Positions 152 through 17,335 of a stretch of 24,272 nucleotides of DNA are shown here, one piece after another. The position numbers were made by a program, and so were the translations under genes. The notes under the pieces were generated by a model. It was not told where the DNA came from, made no database searches, and saw only the letters and a list, made by a program, of their open reading frames with translations. The DNA comes from a virus. The DNA lies in IMG/VR virus record IMGVR_UViG_3300006802_000554, positions 1-24,272 of that record, one strand, 5' to 3'. How positions within the stretch are numbered: position 1 is the first letter of the stretch; each line of letters starts with the position of its first letter.

Positions 152-157
152 TTGCTT

Positions 158-712
158 ATGGCTCTAATTCCCCGTGCTGATGCAGCACGCGCTCTCGGCG
201 TCACGAAAGAAGCGGTGTACGCCGCTATCCGCACTGGGCGGCTAAGTGTCATCACCACTAGAGACGGGCGTGTGCTGGTAAACAGCGAGACAATGCGCGA
301 TGAGTGGCAGCAAAACACGCAGCGCCGCATCGGGGCTGGTCCGCGCCCACCCGCCAACGCCCCACGCCCCCAGCGCCTGGCCCGCCCCATGACCAACACC
401 CCCGCTCCCGCCGAAGAAGTCCCCGACTACAACACCAGCCGCGCCCGCACCGAGCACCTAAAAGCCGAACTTCTGGAGCTGGAACGCCAGCAGAAGGAGT
501 CTCTGCTCGTCCCTGCAGCTGAAATCGAAGCCAAATGGGTCGAAATAATCACCTTGGCACGCACTAAGATACTCGGAATCCCCACAAAAGCTAAGCAGCG
601 CATACCTGACCTCGACGTTTCCGCTATAAGCCTCCTAGACGACATCGTGCGCGAGGCTCTCGAAGACCTGAGCGGCGACATCCCAGACCCCGACTCCCCT
701 GCAGCCGAGTAG
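158..712 (+). CDS. Terminase small subunit (Nu1-like DNA-binding protein)
   Basis: This protein would recognise the packaging site on concatemeric phage DNA and recruit the large terminase. The first 30 residues form a helix-turn-helix of the Nu1/excisionase type (ADAARALGVTKEAVYAAIRTG), followed by a basic, proline-rich linker (about 55-85). A helical, charged C-terminal half (SRARTEHLKAELLELERQQ) is suited to oligomerisation and contact with the large subunit. The length of about 184 residues matches lambda gpNu1. I chose ATG at 158; a TTG two codons upstream at 152 is the longest alternative. It ends 13 bases before the large terminase, as expected for a co-transcribed pair. The family is inferred from the HTH, the size and the neighbour, not from a full alignment. 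Confidence 0.8.
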   Translation: MALIPRADAARALGVTKEAVYAAIRTGRLSVITTRDGRVLVNSETMRDEWQQNTQRRIGAGPRPPANAPRPQRLARPMTNTPAPAEEVPDYNTSRARTEHLKAELLELERQQKESLLVPAAEIEAKWVEIITLARTKILGIPTKAKQRIPDLDVSAISLLDDIVREALEDLSGDIPDPDSPAAE

Positions 713-725
713 TCCTATACAGCGC

Positions 726-2591
726 ATGAGCAACTTACAGCGCCTGGAACGCTCCGCCTTCGCCGCATTTCGCCCACCCCGCCGCCTCACACTCAGCGAG
801 TGGGCCGACGACCACGCCTACCTAAGCGCCGAATCCAGCGCCGAAGGCGGCCGTTGGCGCACTTTGCCCTATCAAAAGGGCATTATGGACGCAATAAGCG
901 ATCCTAAGGTTGAACAAATAACCGTAATGAAATCTGCCCGCGTGGGTTACAGCAAGATCCTCAACCACGTCATCGCGTACCACATCCACCAAGATCCCGC
1001 ACCAATCATGCTGGTGCAGCCCACGATCGAGGACGCCCAGGGCTACTCCAAGGAAGAGATCGCCCCCATGCTCCGCGACACTCCCTGCCTACGTGGCCTG
1101 GTCAGCGAGTCCAAAGCCAAGGACGGCGCCAACACCATCCTCCAGAAACAGTTTCCGGGTGGAACGCTCAGCCTGGTCGGCGCCAACTCGCCCCGAGGCT
1201 TCCGCCGCGTCAGCCGCCGTATCGTCCTCTTCGACGAAGTGGACGGCTACCCCGCCTCCGCTGGTGCGGAAGGCGACCAGATCAAACTCGGCATCCGCCG
1301 CACCGAGTATTACTGGAACCGCAAGATCGTCGCCGGCTCCACCCCCACCATCCGCGACTTCAGCCGGGTGGAGCGCATGTTCCAGCAGTCCGACCAGCGC
1401 CGCTACTACGTCCCCTGCCCCGACTGCAGCCACATGCAGTACCTCCGCTGGCCCAACATCCGCTGGCACGACAACGACCCCGCCACCGCCTCCTACGCCT
1501 GCGAATCCTGCGGCACCCTCATCCCCCACAGCAAGAAGCGCTGGATGGTGGAACGCGGCGAGTGGCGTGCCACCGCCCCCGGCAACGGCCGCCACATCGG
1601 CTTCCACATCTGGGCCGCCTACTCCTACTCTCCCAACGCCTCCTGGGCCAACCTCGTCGAAGAATTCCTCGACGCTAAGCAGAACGCCGAGCAACTCAAA
1701 ACCTTCGTCAACACCGTCCTGGGCGAAACCTGGGAAGACGAATACGCCTCCAAGATTGGCGCCACCTCCCTCATGGAACGCGCCGCCAAGGAGTCCTACA
1801 AGCAACACTGCCCACCCGTCGAAGCCCTCCTGCTTACCGCTGGCTGCGACTGCCAAGACGACCGCCTCAGCGTCAGCGTCTGGGCCTGGGGGCGCGAGGA
1901 AGAGGGCTGGCTCGTCGACCGCATCAAGCTCTACGGCAGCCCCAGCCGCCCCGACGTCTGGAAGCAGCTCGATGAACTCCTCTCCACCCCCTACACCAAC
2001 GAAGCCAACACCCAACTCAAAATCCAAATCATGGCCATCGACTCCGGCGGCCACCACACCCAAGAGGTCTACCAATACGCCCGAGAACGCGCCGCCCTAG
2101 GCGTCATCCCCATCAAAGGCGCTAATCAGAAGGGCAAACCGCCCCTAAGTAAGCCGTCTAAGGTTGACGTTAATTACAACGGTAAGCTGCTTAAAAAAGG
2201 CGTACAAATCTTCAACGTGGGCGTAGACGGAATCAAGTCCCTCCTATTCGGCCGCCTCAAGCACAACGACCCTGGTCCGGGCTACCTCCACTTCTACCCC
2301 ACCATCACCAACGACTACTTCGAGGAACTCACCGCAGAAAAACAGATCCTCCGCTTCCGCAACGGCTTCCCCGAGCGCATCTGGGTCAAAAAGAGCCAAG
2401 CCCCCAACGAAGCACTCGACGAACTGAACTACGCCTACGCCGCACTCCACCGCCTCTACCAGCGTTACGACCGCCGCACCATCTGGGACCAGTTCGAGCG
2501 CACCCTGACCCCCGCTGGTACGCCCCAATCCCCCACACCCGCCACCCCACCTCCCTCCAAACCCCGCCGCAACTTCATCAGCCAGTGGTAA
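726..2591 (+). CDS. Terminase large subunit (lambda gpA family): packaging ATPase and nuclease
   Basis: The packaging motor and DNA-cutting enzyme, acting at the portal vertex of the prohead. The 621 residues are close to lambda gpA (641). An ATPase half carries a Walker-A-like segment (KSARVGYSK, residues 69-77), as variable in this family, and a Walker B (IVLFDE, 165-170). A four-cysteine zinc-ribbon pattern follows (CPDC at 231-234, CESC at 259-262). The C-terminal nuclease half has an acidic strand motif (GCDCQDD, 373-379) and a second acidic motif (AIDSGG, 437-442). The tail is rich in proline, threonine and serine. The start ATG lies 13 bases after the small subunit stop without a clear ribosome site. 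Identity is very secure from the motifs, size and position. Confidence 0.95.
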   Translation: MSNLQRLERSAFAAFRPPRRLTLSEWADDHAYLSAESSAEGGRWRTLPYQKGIMDAISDPKVEQITVMKSARVGYSKILNHVIAYHIHQDPAPIMLVQPTIEDAQGYSKEEIAPMLRDTPCLRGLVSESKAKDGANTILQKQFPGGTLSLVGANSPRGFRRVSRRIVLFDEVDGYPASAGAEGDQIKLGIRRTEYYWNRKIVAGSTPTIRDFSRVERMFQQSDQRRYYVPCPDCSHMQYLRWPNIRWHDNDPATASYACESCGTLIPHSKKRWMVERGEWRATAPGNGRHIGFHIWAAYSYSPNASWANLVEEFLDAKQNAEQLKTFVNTVLGETWEDEYASKIGATSLMERAAKESYKQHCPPVEALLLTAGCDCQDDRLSVSVWAWGREEEGWLVDRIKLYGSPSRPDVWKQLDELLSTPYTNEANTQLKIQIMAIDSGGHHTQEVYQYARERAALGVIPIKGANQKGKPPLSKPSKVDVNYNGKLLKKGVQIFNVGVDGIKSLLFGRLKHNDPGPGYLHFYPTITNDYFEELTAEKQILRFRNGFPERIWVKKSQAPNEALDELNYAYAALHRLYQRYDRRTIWDQFERTLTPAGTPQSPTPATPPPSKPRRNFISQW

Positions 2592-2656: not shown

Positions 2657-3238
2657 GTGAACGTCCCGGCCCAAATCACCGCTGGCACGACCGTCGTGTG
2701 GGACGACACCCCGACCACCGACAACTTCGGCGTGCAAGTCGACGCGACCACGCACACCCTCACTTACTACTTCCGCTACAACGAAGTATTCGAGGCAGTC
2801 ACCGCAGCCGCTGCCGCCTCCGGCCTCAACTGGCGCACCACCCTCAGCTCTGGCACCACCGGCCCCATGGCCGCTGGAACGTGGTACTTCAGCGCCGTCG
2901 CCACCAAGATCAGCGGTGGAACGGTCCTCGAACTCGGCCGGGGCACCCTCACCGTCGCCGCCTCCCTCGCCTACGCCGGCAACTCCGCCGCCTACGACGG
3001 ACGCAGCCAGACCCAGAAAGACCTCGATGCCGTCCAGCAGGCCATCCGCACGCTGCTCTCCGGCGGCAGCGTCCAGGAGTACCGCATCGGCCAGCGCAGC
3101 ATCAAGCGCTACGACCTAAGCGAACTGCTCCAGCTCGAAGCCAAGCTCAAGGGCGACGTCAAGCGAGAAGAAGCCGCCCAGCTCATGGCCAACGGCCTAG
3201 GCAATCCGCGCAACATGTTCGTCCGATTCAACGCCTAA
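2657..3238 (+). CDS. gpW-like head-tail joining protein with an extra N-terminal beta domain
   Basis: The last 80 residues (about 113-193) look like the small head-tail joining protein gpW of lambda: helical and charged, with the pattern YRIGQRSIKRYDLSELLQL and an ending GNPRNMFVRF. gpW binds the portal after DNA packaging and prepares the head for tail attachment. The position between large terminase and portal is exactly that of lambda W. Residues 1-110 are a separate beta-rich, Thr/Val-rich domain (VVWDDTP near 13, YYFRYNE near 37, GTWYFSAV near 74) that resembles an immunoglobulin-like fold; lambda gpW (68 residues) lacks it. Start is GTG at 2657 after a 65-base gap, with no ATG upstream. 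The stop is followed by only three bases before the portal. The W assignment is good; the role of the added domain is unknown. Confidence 0.78.
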   Translation: MNVPAQITAGTTVVWDDTPTTDNFGVQVDATTHTLTYYFRYNEVFEAVTAAAAASGLNWRTTLSSGTTGPMAAGTWYFSAVATKISGGTVLELGRGTLTVAASLAYAGNSAAYDGRSQTQKDLDAVQQAIRTLLSGGSVQEYRIGQRSIKRYDLSELLQLEAKLKGDVKREEAAQLMANGLGNPRNMFVRFNA

Positions 3239-3241
3239 GTC

Positions 3242-4831
3242 ATGGGAATCCGAACTGCTCTGGCCCACGCTTTCGGCTTCGGTCCCACCAAGCCCGCCAC
3301 ACCCACGCGCCCCCCAGCCCGCCGCCAATACCAGGGCGCCCTAATCTCGCGCCTCACTGCCGACTGGCTCGCCACCCAGGCCAGCGCCGACGCCGAGATC
3401 CGCACCAGCATCCGCAAGCTCCGCGACCGCTCCCGTGAGCTGGTCCGCAACAACCCCTACGCCAAACAAGCCAAACGCACCACCCAAATCAACGTCGTCG
3501 GCACCGGCATCAAGCTCCAGAGCCAAGTCCTCCAGCTGCGCGGCAACAAACGCGACGAGCGCATCAACAAGCTCCTCGAAGCCAAGTGGGAGGTCTGGAC
3601 CCGCGCCCAGCACTGCGACGTCTCCGGCCGCTACAGCTTCCACCAGTTCGAGTGGCTCGCGACCGGTGCGCTCCCCGAATCCGGCGAAGCCATCTTCCGC
3701 ATCATCCGCCGCCCCTTCGGCTCCTCCCGCGTCCCCCTCGCCCTCCAGATGCTGGAGAGCGACCTCCTCGACGAGGAATACAACGGCGCCACCTCCGCCC
3801 CCACCAACGAATGGCGCAACGGCGTCGAAGTCGACGAGTGGGGCCGCCCTGTCCGCTACGCCATCCTCACCCGTCACCCCGGCGACTCCTGGTTCCAGAA
3901 CCGCACCCAACCCAACGGCAAGCACGTCTTCCTCCCCGCTGCCGACGTCATCCACCTCTTCCTCCCCGAGCGCCCCTTTCAGAACCGAGGCGTCCCCTGG
4001 TTCCACCCCGTCATGGCGGACGTCCACCAACTCCAGGGCTACGAAGAGGCCGCCGTCATCCGTGCCCGCGCTGGTGCGTCCGTCATGGGCTTCATCACCA
4101 ACAACGAAGGCGAACTCACCCCCGACGCCATCGAAAACAACCAGCGCATCAGCGAGTTCGAGCCCGGTATGTTCAAGTACCTCAATGCCGGCGAATCCGT
4201 AACCGTCCCGAACATCGACTCGCCCGACCAGCAGTTCGAGATGTTCGTCCGCAACAAGATCCGCCGCTTCGCCAGTGGCTTCGGCTGCTCCTACGAAACA
4301 CTAAGCCGCGATTTCAGCGAAACCAACTACTCCAGCTCCCGCCTAAGTCTCTTGGAAGACCGCGAGCACTGGCGCGTCATCCAGAACTACCTAATCGAGA
4401 ACTTCCACATGCGCGTGTTCCGCGAGTGGCTAAGCCTCGCGGTGCTTAGTGGGGAGCTTCCCTTCTCAGACTTCGAGCTGCGCCCCGAGCGCTACGACAA
4501 CCCCCGCTGGATGCCTCGCGGCTGGTCCTGGGTCGACCCCCTCAAGGAAGTCAAGGCTTACCGCGAAGCCGAGCAAGCCGGCTACATGACCAAGAGCCAG
4601 ATCGTCGCCCAGAACGGCGGCGACTACGACGAAAACATCGCCGAAATCTCTCGCGAACAGCAGCTCGCCGCCGCCTCCTCCGTCACCCTCGACCGCGACA
4701 TCCTCGACCTAAGCCAGAGCGGCCCACCACCAACCGAGCCCACCCCACCACCTGAGCCCGCCGCTGGTCCGCAGCGTTCCAAACGCCGCCGCACCAAGGC
4801 CGCCGATCCCACCGACTCCGAGACCCCGTGA
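3242..4831 (+). CDS. Portal protein (lambda gpB family)
   Basis: Forms the dodecameric ring at one capsid vertex through which DNA enters and leaves, and which nucleates head assembly. Family-typical segments are an N-terminal helix with RELVRNNPYAKQAKRT (about 64-80), WEVWTRAQHCDVSGR (near 116-130), the strand LESDLLDEEYNG (near 171-182), HLFLPERPFQNRGVPWFHPV (near 238-258), and LEDREHWRVIQ. The length of 529 matches lambda gpB (533). The last 35 residues are proline-rich and then basic, a probably flexible tail; in lambda gpB is trimmed by the head protease. The stop overlaps the GTG start of the next gene in GTGA, so translation is probably coupled. Codons end mainly in C or G. Confidence 0.93.
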   Translation: MGIRTALAHAFGFGPTKPATPTRPPARRQYQGALISRLTADWLATQASADAEIRTSIRKLRDRSRELVRNNPYAKQAKRTTQINVVGTGIKLQSQVLQLRGNKRDERINKLLEAKWEVWTRAQHCDVSGRYSFHQFEWLATGALPESGEAIFRIIRRPFGSSRVPLALQMLESDLLDEEYNGATSAPTNEWRNGVEVDEWGRPVRYAILTRHPGDSWFQNRTQPNGKHVFLPAADVIHLFLPERPFQNRGVPWFHPVMADVHQLQGYEEAAVIRARAGASVMGFITNNEGELTPDAIENNQRISEFEPGMFKYLNAGESVTVPNIDSPDQQFEMFVRNKIRRFASGFGCSYETLSRDFSETNYSSSRLSLLEDREHWRVIQNYLIENFHMRVFREWLSLAVLSGELPFSDFELRPERYDNPRWMPRGWSWVDPLKEVKAYREAEQAGYMTKSQIVAQNGGDYDENIAEISREQQLAAASSVTLDRDILDLSQSGPPPTEPTPPPEPAAGPQRSKRRRTKAADPTDSETP

Positions 4832-7800
4832 ACACCACACCCACCAAGGGGATGCGCGACGAAGCCCAGCGCTACCGCGACTGGAAAGCAGCCGGCCATC
4901 GCGGTGGTACGGAAGTCGCCGCCCGCCGCGCCTCCCAGATCCTCAGCGGCAAGCCCCTCAGCGCCGACACCATCCGCACGATGAGCGCCTGGTTCGCCCG
5001 GCACTCCGTCGACAAGCAAGCCGAAGGCTTCCGCCCCGGCGAATCCGGCTACCCCTCCCCCGGACGCGTCGCCTGGGCCGCCTGGGGCGGCGACCCCGGC
5101 CAACGCTGGAGCGATTCCCTCGCCTCAAAGCTCGACTCCCCCACCACCAAAGCGCTGGAGGGCGCCACCTCTATGGACACCACCGACCGCGAACTCGACT
5201 CCACCATGAGCGCCGGCCAAGCCGCCCTCTACGAGTCCCTCGAAGAGATCACCGACGAACTCGGCGCCTTCGACCAGACCTCCGGCGAGCACGGCGCCCA
5301 CTACATGGCCGAGAGCCCCTTCGCCTCCTCCGGCCTTGTCTGCAGCAACTGCGCCTTCTTCGCCGGCCCCCGCGCCTGCGAGATCGTCTCCGGCGACATC
5401 GCCCCCGAAGGCGTCTGCAAGTTCTGGATCATCCCCGAGCGTCTGATCAGCGAATCCCCCGAGGAGGACGCCGGCCGCCCTTACCCGCAGGAGCACGCCG
5501 CCCGCCTGCGCGACCCCTCCCAGTACGACCGTTTCCGCCGCCGCAACAACGCCGCCGGTGCCGGCGTCGACTTCATCTTCGGCATCAAGTCCGGCCAGTC
5601 TGGCGCCGAACTCCAAACCATCCGCTTCCGCCTCAGCCGCTTCACCGCCGCCGAAGCCCGCGCCTGGCTCAGCGACCACGACTACAAACCCCTCCAGTTC
5701 GAGCCCGCCACCAACGAAAAAGCGCTCGAAGCCCTGGAACGTGCCACCGCCTCCCAGCTCAGCACCGGCGATTACGTCCGCTGGAACAGCTCCGGCGGCA
5801 CCGCCCAAGGCCGTATCGAGCACGTCATGCGCGAAGGCACCCTCGGCGTCCCCGACAGCGAGTTCAGCATCGACGCCACCGCCGAAGACCCCGCCGCCCT
5901 CATCCGCATCTACCGCCAAACCGACTCCACCTGGAACGCCACCGAAACTCTCGTCGGCCACCGCTTCTCTACACTTACCAAAATCCCCGCCCTAAGACTT
6001 ATGGATACGCCGCTGGAACGCGCTACCTCCGAACGCTTCAATCGCACCGAAGCCACGAACTTCCGTGCCATCGAAGAACGTACCTTCGAGTTCCCCTTCA
6101 GCTCTGAGTACCCCGTCAGCCGCTACTTCGGCAACGAAGTGCTCAGCCACGAAAGTGATGCCGCTGACCTCACCCGCCTCAACGATGGAGCGCCCCTGCT
6201 CTTCAACCACAACCCCGACAAAGTTGTCGGCGTAGTTGAACGCGCCTGGATTAACGACTCCGACAAGCGCGGCTACGCCAAAGTCCGCTTCAGCCGCAAC
6301 CAGTTCGCCCAAGAGATCCTTGATGACGTAAAGGACAACATCCTGCGCGGTATCAGTTTCGGCTACGGAATCGACAAAATGGAGGAGCGCAGCGGCAACT
6401 TTGTTGCCACTAAATGGCAGCCGGTGGAAATCAGCGTCGTTTCAATACCCGCAGATCCAACAATCGGAATCGGCCGCTCACTCCTCTCTGAAGTACACCT
6501 TTCCCCCGAATTGATTGACTCACCCGCGTCTATTATGGAAAACGAAGCGCCCGTTTCCGATACGCAAGTAGACGATCCGGCAACACGCTCAGCGGCCCAA
6601 ACCGCATCTACCCCCACTCCCGAAATGGAAAACACCCCTGACCTGGAGGTGGTCCGGTCCAAGGCCGTTGAGGCCGAGCGGACCCGCATCGCCGCCATCA
6701 CCGCACTGGGCGACCGGCACCAGATGCAAGACCTGGCCCGCGAACTGATCGACGGTGGTCGCACCCTCGACGACGCTCGCGCTGCCGTCCTCGACAAACT
6801 CGGCTCTGCCCCCATGGAACAACCCATCCGCTCCACCGACCTCACCACGAACGACGTCGGCCTGTCCACCCGCGAGACCGAGCGCTTCTCGTTTGTCCGC
6901 GCCCTCAACTTCCTCGCCAACCCCTCCGACGCTTCGGCCCGCCGTGCCGCTGAGTTCGAGATTGAAGTCGGCAAGGCCGCCGCACAGAAGTACGAGCGCT
7001 CCAGCAACGGCATCGTTGTCCCCAACGAAGTCCTCCGTCGCGACCTGCTCGCCGGCCTCCCCTCCGCCGGTGGAAACCTCGTCGCCGACGAACTGCTGAG
7101 CGGCAGCTTCATCGACCTGCTCCGCAACCGCCTCGCCCTCGCCAACGCCGGCGTCACGATGCTCAGCGGCCTGCAAGGCAACATCAGCATCCCGAGGCAA
7201 AGTTCGGCGAGTACCGCCTACTGGGTTGGCGAAAATGTTGCACCTACCGAATCGCAACAAGCGATCGACCAGGTGAACATGACGCCCAAAACCGTGGGCG
7301 CCTACGTCGACTACTCCCGCCGCCTGCTCCTCCAGTCCTCGATCGACGTCGAGGGGATGGTCCGTAACGACCTGACCCGCGTCATCGCGCTCGAACTGGA
7401 TCGCGTCGGCATGTACGGCACCGGCTCCTCCAACCAGCCCCTGGGCCTGATCAACACCAGCGGCATCGGCAGCCAAGCCATCACCACCTACGGCACCTTC
7501 GAGGAGTACATCGGCATGGAGACCGACGTTGCCGCCGGCAACGCCGACGCTGGTGCGATGCGTTACATCATCAACGCCTCTGCCCGTGGTGCGCTCAAGT
7601 CGACCGCCAAGAGTGCCTCCGCAGTCGCCGCCGGTTTCGTCTACGAAGACAACGAAATCAACGGCTACCCCGTCATCGCCTCCAACCAGCTCGCTAACAA
7701 CGACGCACTGTTCGGCGACTTCTCCATGATGATCATGGGCATGTGGTCCGGTCTCGACCTCACGGTTGACCCATTCGCCGGTGCCACCGCTGGCACGGTT

Positions 7801-7869
7801 CGCGTCATCGCCCTGCAGGACGTTGACCTGGCCGTCAAGCAGCCGGCTGCTTTCTGCTACGGAACCTGA
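4828..7869 (+). CDS. Prohead protease - major capsid protein fusion with extra N-terminal modules
   Basis: One uninterrupted 1013-residue frame holds several phage-head modules. Residues 9-104 are a compact basic/aromatic domain (EAQRYRDW, AWFARHSVDK, AWAAWGGDPG) found near phage proteases but without a known job. Residues 172-200 have a four-cysteine pattern (C172, C175, C184, C197, then KFW) like high-potential iron-sulfur proteins. Residues 218-295 form a module starting PYPQEHAARLRDP. Residues 314-388 resemble a DUF2945/Tudor-like domain (GDYVRWNSSGG). Residues 405-555 are an HK97-family (U35) prohead protease; likely catalytic residues are H461 (FNHNP) and S510 (ISFGYG), with E534 in PVEISVVSIPADP. 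From about 600 onward is an HK97-fold major capsid protein: a helical scaffold-like arm, then GNLVADELLS and STAYWVGE. Start GTG overlaps the portal stop. Capsid protein could be released by self-processing, or translated separately from ATG at 6535 or 6625. Confidence 0.9.
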   Translation: MNTTPTKGMRDEAQRYRDWKAAGHRGGTEVAARRASQILSGKPLSADTIRTMSAWFARHSVDKQAEGFRPGESGYPSPGRVAWAAWGGDPGQRWSDSLASKLDSPTTKALEGATSMDTTDRELDSTMSAGQAALYESLEEITDELGAFDQTSGEHGAHYMAESPFASSGLVCSNCAFFAGPRACEIVSGDIAPEGVCKFWIIPERLISESPEEDAGRPYPQEHAARLRDPSQYDRFRRRNNAAGAGVDFIFGIKSGQSGAELQTIRFRLSRFTAAEARAWLSDHDYKPLQFEPATNEKALEALERATASQLSTGDYVRWNSSGGTAQGRIEHVMREGTLGVPDSEFSIDATAEDPAALIRIYRQTDSTWNATETLVGHRFSTLTKIPALRLMDTPLERATSERFNRTEATNFRAIEERTFEFPFSSEYPVSRYFGNEVLSHESDAADLTRLNDGAPLLFNHNPDKVVGVVERAWINDSDKRGYAKVRFSRNQFAQEILDDVKDNILRGISFGYGIDKMEERSGNFVATKWQPVEISVVSIPADPTIGIGRSLLSEVHLSPELIDSPASIMENEAPVSDTQVDDPATRSAAQTASTPTPEMENTPDLEVVRSKAVEAERTRIAAITALGDRHQMQDLARELIDGGRTLDDARAAVLDKLGSAPMEQPIRSTDLTTNDVGLSTRETERFSFVRALNFLANPSDASARRAAEFEIEVGKAAAQKYERSSNGIVVPNEVLRRDLLAGLPSAGGNLVADELLSGSFIDLLRNRLALANAGVTMLSGLQGNISIPRQSSASTAYWVGENVAPTESQQAIDQVNMTPKTVGAYVDYSRRLLLQSSIDVEGMVRNDLTRVIALELDRVGMYGTGSSNQPLGLINTSGIGSQAITTYGTFEEYIGMETDVAAGNADAGAMRYIINASARGALKSTAKSASAVAAGFVYEDNEINGYPVIASNQLANNDALFGDFSMMIMGMWSGLDLTVDPFAGATAGTVRVIALQDVDLAVKQPAAFCYGT

Positions 7870-16696: not shown

Positions 16697-17335
16697 ATGG
16701 GTGCTCCATCTATTGATCTGACCGGGGTGCGCTTTGGACGGCTTCTTGTGCTGGGTGTAAGTAGTACAAAAATTTATGAACGCCAACTTGCTTGGGACTG
16801 TTTATGCAGTTGTGGCGTAATTAAGCCAGTGTTGACTTGTACCCTAAAATCTGGTAGCACTAAATCATGTGGATGCTTAAAACGTGAGTGCAAACCACCA
16901 GTGCGTTATACACACGGTTTAAGTAAGTATTCAGGTATAAAAGTATGGGAAGGTATGTTACGGCGTTGTCAAAATAAAAAAGATAAAAACTACATGCTAT
17001 ATGGGGGTAGAGGTATTAAAGTATGTGATAGATGGCTTGATCCTAAAAATTTTGCCGAAGATATGGGAGAAAAGCCTAACGGCTATTCTTTGGATCGCAT
17101 TGATCCTAATGGCGATTACTGCCCAGAAAACTGTAGATGGGCTACACCTGCTGAGCAAGGGGCTAATAAGCGAACAAATCGCATGATTGAGCACGAGGGC
17201 GAAACTTTACATTTAGCTGAATGGTGTAGACGCCTGGGCATGAAACCATCTACTGTGTTTAATAGAATCAGCTCTGGAATGTCTCCTTCACTTGCTTTAA
17301 CAATGCCATCGCGGCGGCAGCGGAGAGCCTCATGA
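16697..17335 (+). CDS. Free-standing HNH-type homing endonuclease
   Basis: The 212-residue product has an N-terminal zinc-binding part (C35, C37, C39 and C58, C60 in KSCGC), a central nuclease part ([20 protein letters not shown] at 84-103, CDRW at 110-113, [19 protein letters not shown] at 131-149) and a C-terminal helix-turn-helix of the NUMOD type ([18 protein letters not shown]). Such genes are selfish elements that cut a related allele lacking them. The DNA is clearly AT-richer, with codons ending in A or T, unlike the neighbouring tail genes. It lies between L and K, not inside either. Its stop overlaps the K start in ATGA, which keeps K translated. An AGGA stands 13 bases before the ATG. 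Confidence 0.88.

Follow-up and report, generated by a model that had tools for sequence, protein, structure and literature searches.

The single 1013-residue frame that encodes the head protease and the capsid of this aquatic phage very probably gives rise to two proteins rather than one. Comparison with related sequences suggests that a 44-kDa scaffold-capsid protein, initiated at the internal ATG 6625, builds the shell, whilst the full 110-kDa form would be a minor subunit that carries the protease and four small N-terminal modules (A to D). This nested capsid start is strongly supported by the comparative evidence, and we found no description of an internal start in such fusions in the literature searched, i.e., the open-access literature, outside which most subscription papers lie.

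The window, meaning the whole stretch of 24,272 bases analysed here, is an IMG/VR virus record with a lambda/HK97-like late operon (Table 1); among cultured phages, the cyanosiphoviruses S-CBS1/S-CBS3 and S-LBS1 and the roseophages CRP-811/821 stand closest to it. Its coding strand is rich in C from end to end (GC skew about -0.07 to -0.33), its G+C content drops from ~0.65 to 0.44 around 14-15 kb, within the tape-measure gene, and an HNH endonuclease gene is inserted in the tail-tip region at 16697-17335, with minor tail protein genes of phrog_18 and phrog_30 type on either side.

Table 1. Features of the late operon and of the protease-capsid fusion gene, in window positions
Feature	Position	Strand	Residues	Remarks
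TerS	152-712			
TerL	726-2591			
Head-tail joining gene	2657-3238			
Portal	3242-4831			
Protease-capsid fusion, full-length ORF	4828..7869	+	1-1013	GTG start, stop included; 1013 aa, 109.9 kDa; intact in relatives; followed by head-closure, tail terminator, tape measure and tail-tip genes
GTGA overlap, fusion start / portal stop codon	4828..4831	+		
Module A	4834..5139	+	3-104	Basic (pI 10.1) helical domain, phrog_2859 (match 3-101)
Module B	5299..5451	+	158-208	Four-cysteine HiPIP-like motif, Cys172/175/184/197
Module C	5467..5721	+	214-298	RPYPxEHAARL domain
Module D	5740..5982	+	305-385	Tudor-like beta barrel
S78 / HK97-type prohead protease	6070..6477	+	415-550	Pfam, phrog_617, conserved catalytic residues
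Catalytic His	6208-6210	+	461	
Catalytic Ser	6355-6357	+	510	
Linker	6478..6624	+	551-599	Poorly conserved; leader of the proposed internal start; contains the rejected ATG 6535
Strongest synonymous-site constraint in the ORF	6619..6699	+	598-624	
Proposed internal start codon ATG	6625..6627	+	600	
Proposed nested gene, scaffold-capsid protein	6625..7869	+	600-1013	414 aa, 44.0 kDa
Scaffold (delta-like) domain	6625..7068	+	600-747	16.1 kDa; boundary from R4C 8gta
Mature HK97-fold capsid protein	7069..7866	+	748-1013	Predicted 27.9 kDa

The fusion frame and its front modules

That protease and capsid are joined in one frame, as an earlier note had read from the letters alone, is borne out by Pfam: Peptidase_S78 (PF04586) matches residues 447-545 with 38.5 bits (gathering cut-off 21) and Phage_capsid (PF05065) residues 748-1012 with 145.8 bits (cut-off 24.2), and the two catalytic residues it had named, H461 and S510, are invariant across 17 diverse relatives. 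The phrog_617 'major head protein' profile aligns with residues 415-1013 (E=3.3e-156, profile positions 23-622 of 626), and fusions of this kind are already known, both from phrog_617 and from curated NCBIfam protease/MCP fusion models. The frame is uninterrupted in 181 of the 183 loci examined, the two exceptions being a locus truncated by the end of its contig and Faecalibacterium phage FP_Epona, where protease and capsid are encoded separately in two genes. Given these intact frames in relatives, neither the fusion nor its array is an artefact, and the hidden stop or frameshift that the earlier note had named as fatal to its reading was looked for and rejected. The frame offers no start codon ahead of 4828; GTG 4828 lacks a Shine-Dalgarno sequence (-3.0 kcal/mol) and is likely a translationally coupled, presumably weak start. 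A 1227-aa open frame in one locus (L325), considered as a triple fusion, is merely an open stretch upstream of the start.

The basic/aromatic domain, four-cysteine cluster, PYPxEHAARL module and Tudor-like domain that had been distinguished ahead of the protease are all real, recurring entities. Module A is modelled as a helical domain (AlphaFold, mean pLDDT 85.5) and is virus-specific, its fold matches being viral proteins only, many of them named prohead protease, portal or XkdF, with no solved homologue in the PDB either by sequence or by fold. It is seen on other prohead proteases and portals too: in unrelated tailed viruses it mostly belongs to the gene for the head protease, or to a gene close by, ahead of the one for the capsid (Actinomycetia phage DSL-LC01, haloarchaeal HGTV-1, phiPsal1, Limnohabitans DC31 and Vibrio phages), or in portals, and in one case, PaBG, it is a stand-alone small protein. 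Besides portal and prohead protease, viral proteins that carry the names Dps, ParB/sulfiredoxin, HAD-like and TUDOR have predicted folds similar to that of module A, which may be a head-targeting module.

The four cysteines of module B are conserved, and the module itself occurs in some close relatives and not in others. It matches the HiPIP model NF041615 weakly (19.1 bits, E=0.0012, cut-off 100) and HiPIPs of the PDB at E=0.04-0.12, and structure prediction gave no confident model for it. Module C was found in 92 distinct sequences. Module D matches Hva1_TUDOR (PF11160) over residues 314-360 with 26.0 bits (gathering cut-off 24.1), and a beta barrel is predicted for its region (pLDDT about 72-92 by block), with no solved homologue by sequence and no fold match at E<=0.001. 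Neither Tudor nor head-protease modules are mentioned in the account of polyvalent phage proteins in PMC5512222.

Such a long array had been thought unusual, which does not hold, since all four modules, in the window's order, are present in 36 of the 80 IMG/VR loci closest to it, and arrays occur in S-CBS1/3 and CRP-811/821 as well. Profiles of the four modules recover the arrangements A-B-C-D, A-C-B, A-C-D, A-D, A-D-C, A-C, A, C-D and none, the modules being placed upstream of the protease; entire modules distinguish phages that are 98-99% identical in their protease-capsid parts, and a 52-tip tree requires 26 changes of arrangement. These varied arrangements, together with the occurrence of modules elsewhere, show that modules A to D are accessory and exchangeable, and that the array is one state of a fast-changing combinatorial set. 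The modules would act in the procapsid interior, or travel there with the protease.

Two neighbouring annotations deserve mention. In Roseobacter phage CRP-823 (L102:1480-4408) the annotation splits the fusion into two overlapping genes, owing to a frameshift inside module C, either a sequencing error or a natural split, that cuts A and part of C off the protease-capsid part; CRP-821 is intact. In DSL-LC01 (L263:4512-10183) one gene, labelled high potential iron-sulfur protein, stands directly upstream of three annotated capsid maturation protease genes, two of which match modules A and B; the proximity of Fe-S-like modules to head proteases may thus be more widespread.

The proposed start codon between protease and scaffold

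Two internal ATGs, 6535 and 6625, had been put forward as possible capsid starts, and they fare very differently. ATG 6535 is rejected, its Met570 being kept in about 3% of relatives, whilst ATG 6625 is strongly supported: Met600 is invariant in all aligned cyanophage-type relatives, most of the linker before it is not conserved, and it is here, at the start of the scaffold domain, that conservation resumes. The 16 or so distant phages examined also have a Met at their scaffold start. The window thus shares one feature with nested head genes of the Mu I/Z kind, a conserved in-frame candidate start that follows the protease and opens the scaffold; a second, the Shine-Dalgarno sequence ahead of it, is absent from the window.

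Most members outside the cyanophage group have a Shine-Dalgarno sequence about 5-10 nt before the linker ATG (e.g., AAGGAGaacactATG in CRP-811 and cGGAGGacgcaATG in R4C, where the linker Met opens MSDPIQN). For a test of this signal, 80 loci from bacterial genomes, together with reference phages, were thinned to 78 nonredundant members outside that group, and the linker ATGs were compared with other ATGs in frame within each gene, as controls, and with synonymous recodings. The linker (72 aa), its boundaries set by regular expressions, holds an ATG in 78/78 of them, and the best linker Shine-Dalgarno is at -6.9 kcal/mol, versus -4.4 at control ATGs matched for the best-of-n choice (p=9e-11) and -4.8 in the recodings (p=6e-10); the control ATGs do not differ from their own synonymous recodings (-3.9 vs -4.0). 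The same is seen in sister fusion families (S1 type and ClpP-like type), whose capsids are of other types and some of which have a ClpP-like protease: with linkers delimited by a fixed offset, the values are -7.3 versus -4.8 at controls (p=8e-6) and -5.4 in recodings (p=2e-5).

ATG 6625 itself has no Shine-Dalgarno sequence (dG -0.7), nor have most of its counterparts in the close cyanophage-type group, and most gene starts in the window are likewise without one. Among 38 sequences, synonymous conservation along the entire ORF peaks at codons 598-613, with 615-631 next (permutation p<2e-4), and in more divergent sets at codons 603-617 (14 sequences) or 610-624 (7 sequences; permutation p=0.001), whilst codons 415-550 have almost no synonymous invariance (0-6%). 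This peak indicates that selection acts at the nucleotide level at the proposed start. The site is also poor in mRNA structure, at the 98th percentile for openness. At cyanophage-type IMG/VR sites, however, 5-51% of synonymous recodings equal or exceed the real site in openness, and in S-CBS3 as many as 89% do, so that the openness is partly due to residue composition and was not retained as independent evidence.

Mature shell, proposed scheme and its rivals

The deposited capsid chain of phage R4C (PDB 8gta) comprises exactly residues 362-629 of that phage's 629-aa fusion and matches the family profile at E=9e-112. As R4C Gly362, where the chain starts, aligns with Gly748, the mature capsid of the window phage is predicted to be residues 748-1013, derived from the 44.0-kDa Met600 precursor. 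By analogy, the R4C structure implies that the front part of the fusion is absent from the mature shell. The R4C capsid paper describes 415 MCP copies in a T=7 shell, and the R4C papers found do not discuss the protease, cleavage, internal initiation or the front part; nor does the text searched say by what means the first residue of the deposited chain was set.

The earlier note had rightly seen the stoichiometry problem that a 1:1 fusion creates, and had set removal of the front part and an internal start against each other as solutions. This opposition falls away: the R4C structure implies removal, and an internal start explains the dosage, by avoiding that the head is filled with hundreds of proteases. 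In the scheme that we favor, initiation at ATG 6625 would yield the abundant 44-kDa form, made of scaffold (600-747) and capsid (748-1013), and initiation at GTG 4828 the rarer 110-kDa form, made of modules A to D, S78 protease, scaffold and capsid; low expression of the latter would fit a weak GTG that overlaps the portal stop. The long form would co-assemble with the short one via their common capsid domain, which would bring protease and modules inside the procapsid sub-stoichiometrically and without a separate targeting signal. The protease would then cut near residue 748, and scaffold, protease and modules would be removed from all subunits, leaving a shell of ~28-kDa proteins. The frame, its domains, the conserved start signature, the nucleotide constraint and the front part missing in a solved relative are what computation gives directly; initiation in vivo, the product ratio, co-assembly and the exact cut site in the window phage are what we infer from them.

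In principle, all shell subunits could be made as the 1013-residue chain, in a true 1:1 polyprotein from which protease and array are cut 415 times over. The frame, uninterrupted in 181/183 loci, permits this, and a catalytically intact protease could remove itself fully; yet the material to be removed, 415 x (66+16) kDa = 34 MDa or an estimated 41,000 nm3, would nearly fill an HK97-size prohead (inner radius ~22 nm), and the conserved Met, the Shine-Dalgarno beyond synonymous expectation, the constraint at the start and the recurrence in sister families would be left unexplained. We consider this improbable. It is harder still to believe that the conserved Met and Shine-Dalgarno are disused remnants of a recent fusion, in which the stop codon between protease and capsid genes was lost. 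FP_Epona does show the unfused state, with a Shine-Dalgarno-led capsid gene, but the fusions occur across a wide range of bacterial phyla, with identities of 35-45%, and over such distances an unused Shine-Dalgarno should have decayed to synonymous expectation, and it has not; moreover, the cyanophage group, which lacks the Shine-Dalgarno, still keeps the codons after the ATG.

Least credible of all is that the constraint at 6619-6699 reflects some other element, be it a homogenised recombination junction or an internal promoter or RNA element. The frequent exchange of the upstream array on the 52-tip tree might suggest a shared junction that could be homogenised; the array, however, changes upstream of the protease, about 180 codons off, the intervening codons 415-550 are almost free of synonymous invariance, and the Shine-Dalgarno in other families would find no explanation. 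The nested start accounts for these observations, and we retain it.

Relation to known head genes, and meaning

Like the window, phrog_617 and NF045541/NF045540 have protease, scaffold and capsid in one frame and in the same order, but their descriptions mention neither the internal start nor the N-terminal array of our reading. Against NF045541 (prohead protease/MCP fusion) the window scores 185.6 bits, over residues 416-710 only and below the cut-off of 525, owing to a capsid domain of a different type; the true member, S1, scores 621 bits. S-CBS1, S-CBS3, S-LBS1 and CRP-811/821/406 share the window's gene order and a homologous fusion (31-49% identity in tblastn alignments), and differ from its A-B-C-D at the front: A-C in the S-CBS phages, A-D in CRP-811 and A-C plus an extra stretch in CRP-821, all without module B, A alone in CRP-406, and no array in S-LBS1. 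The gene of vB_DshS-R4C is likewise a homologous fusion but has no array of modules A to D.

The proposed 414-aa product has the layout of HK97 gp5 (385 aa) with its delta domain, and HK97 gp4/gp5 run, as here, from protease to scaffold-capsid, but as two genes with nothing fused upstream of the protease. FP_Epona also has nothing fused before its related protease (45% identical), and its separate scaffold-MCP gene has its own AGGAGG start. At this locus (L103:2483-4619), plausibly a picture of the pre-fusion state, the scaffold is related and the capsid type different. In lambda C/Nu3 an in-frame internal start downstream of the protease gives a second, shorter head protein, which is scaffold alone, the capsid being a separate gene. 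Mu I/Z and PaMx73 gene 27, whose scaffold starts at Val177 with a Shine-Dalgarno (PMC4378225), share this arrangement, and the scaffold start inside a Mu-type protease gene is the closest published analogue. Whereas the nested product of those phages is scaffold only, that of the window would include the capsid, so that the protease would ride in as an extended capsid subunit.

It is tempting to go further and suppose that fusions generally use a nested scaffold-capsid start, and that in aquatic phages the rare long form also delivers modules A to D (B possibly a [4Fe-4S] HiPIP-like one) as swappable procapsid cargo, released by the protease and acting in the head or in the newly infected cell; in this full extent the idea is speculative and rather unlikely.

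Entries that give a phage 'major capsid protein' as a protease fusion are numerous, and they are silent on how the protease dose is controlled. The same internal start is seen in protease-capsid fusions of many unrelated bacteria and, if this conserved embedded start is true, fusion entries describe two proteins, it is at the internal Met that the real capsid precursor starts, and in some tailed phages the protease is loaded as a minor version of the shell subunit. The front of the gene, where nearly identical protease-capsid parts carry different arrays, is therefore a fast-exchanging site for head modules, among them the virus-specific helical A, the HiPIP-like B and the Tudor-like D.
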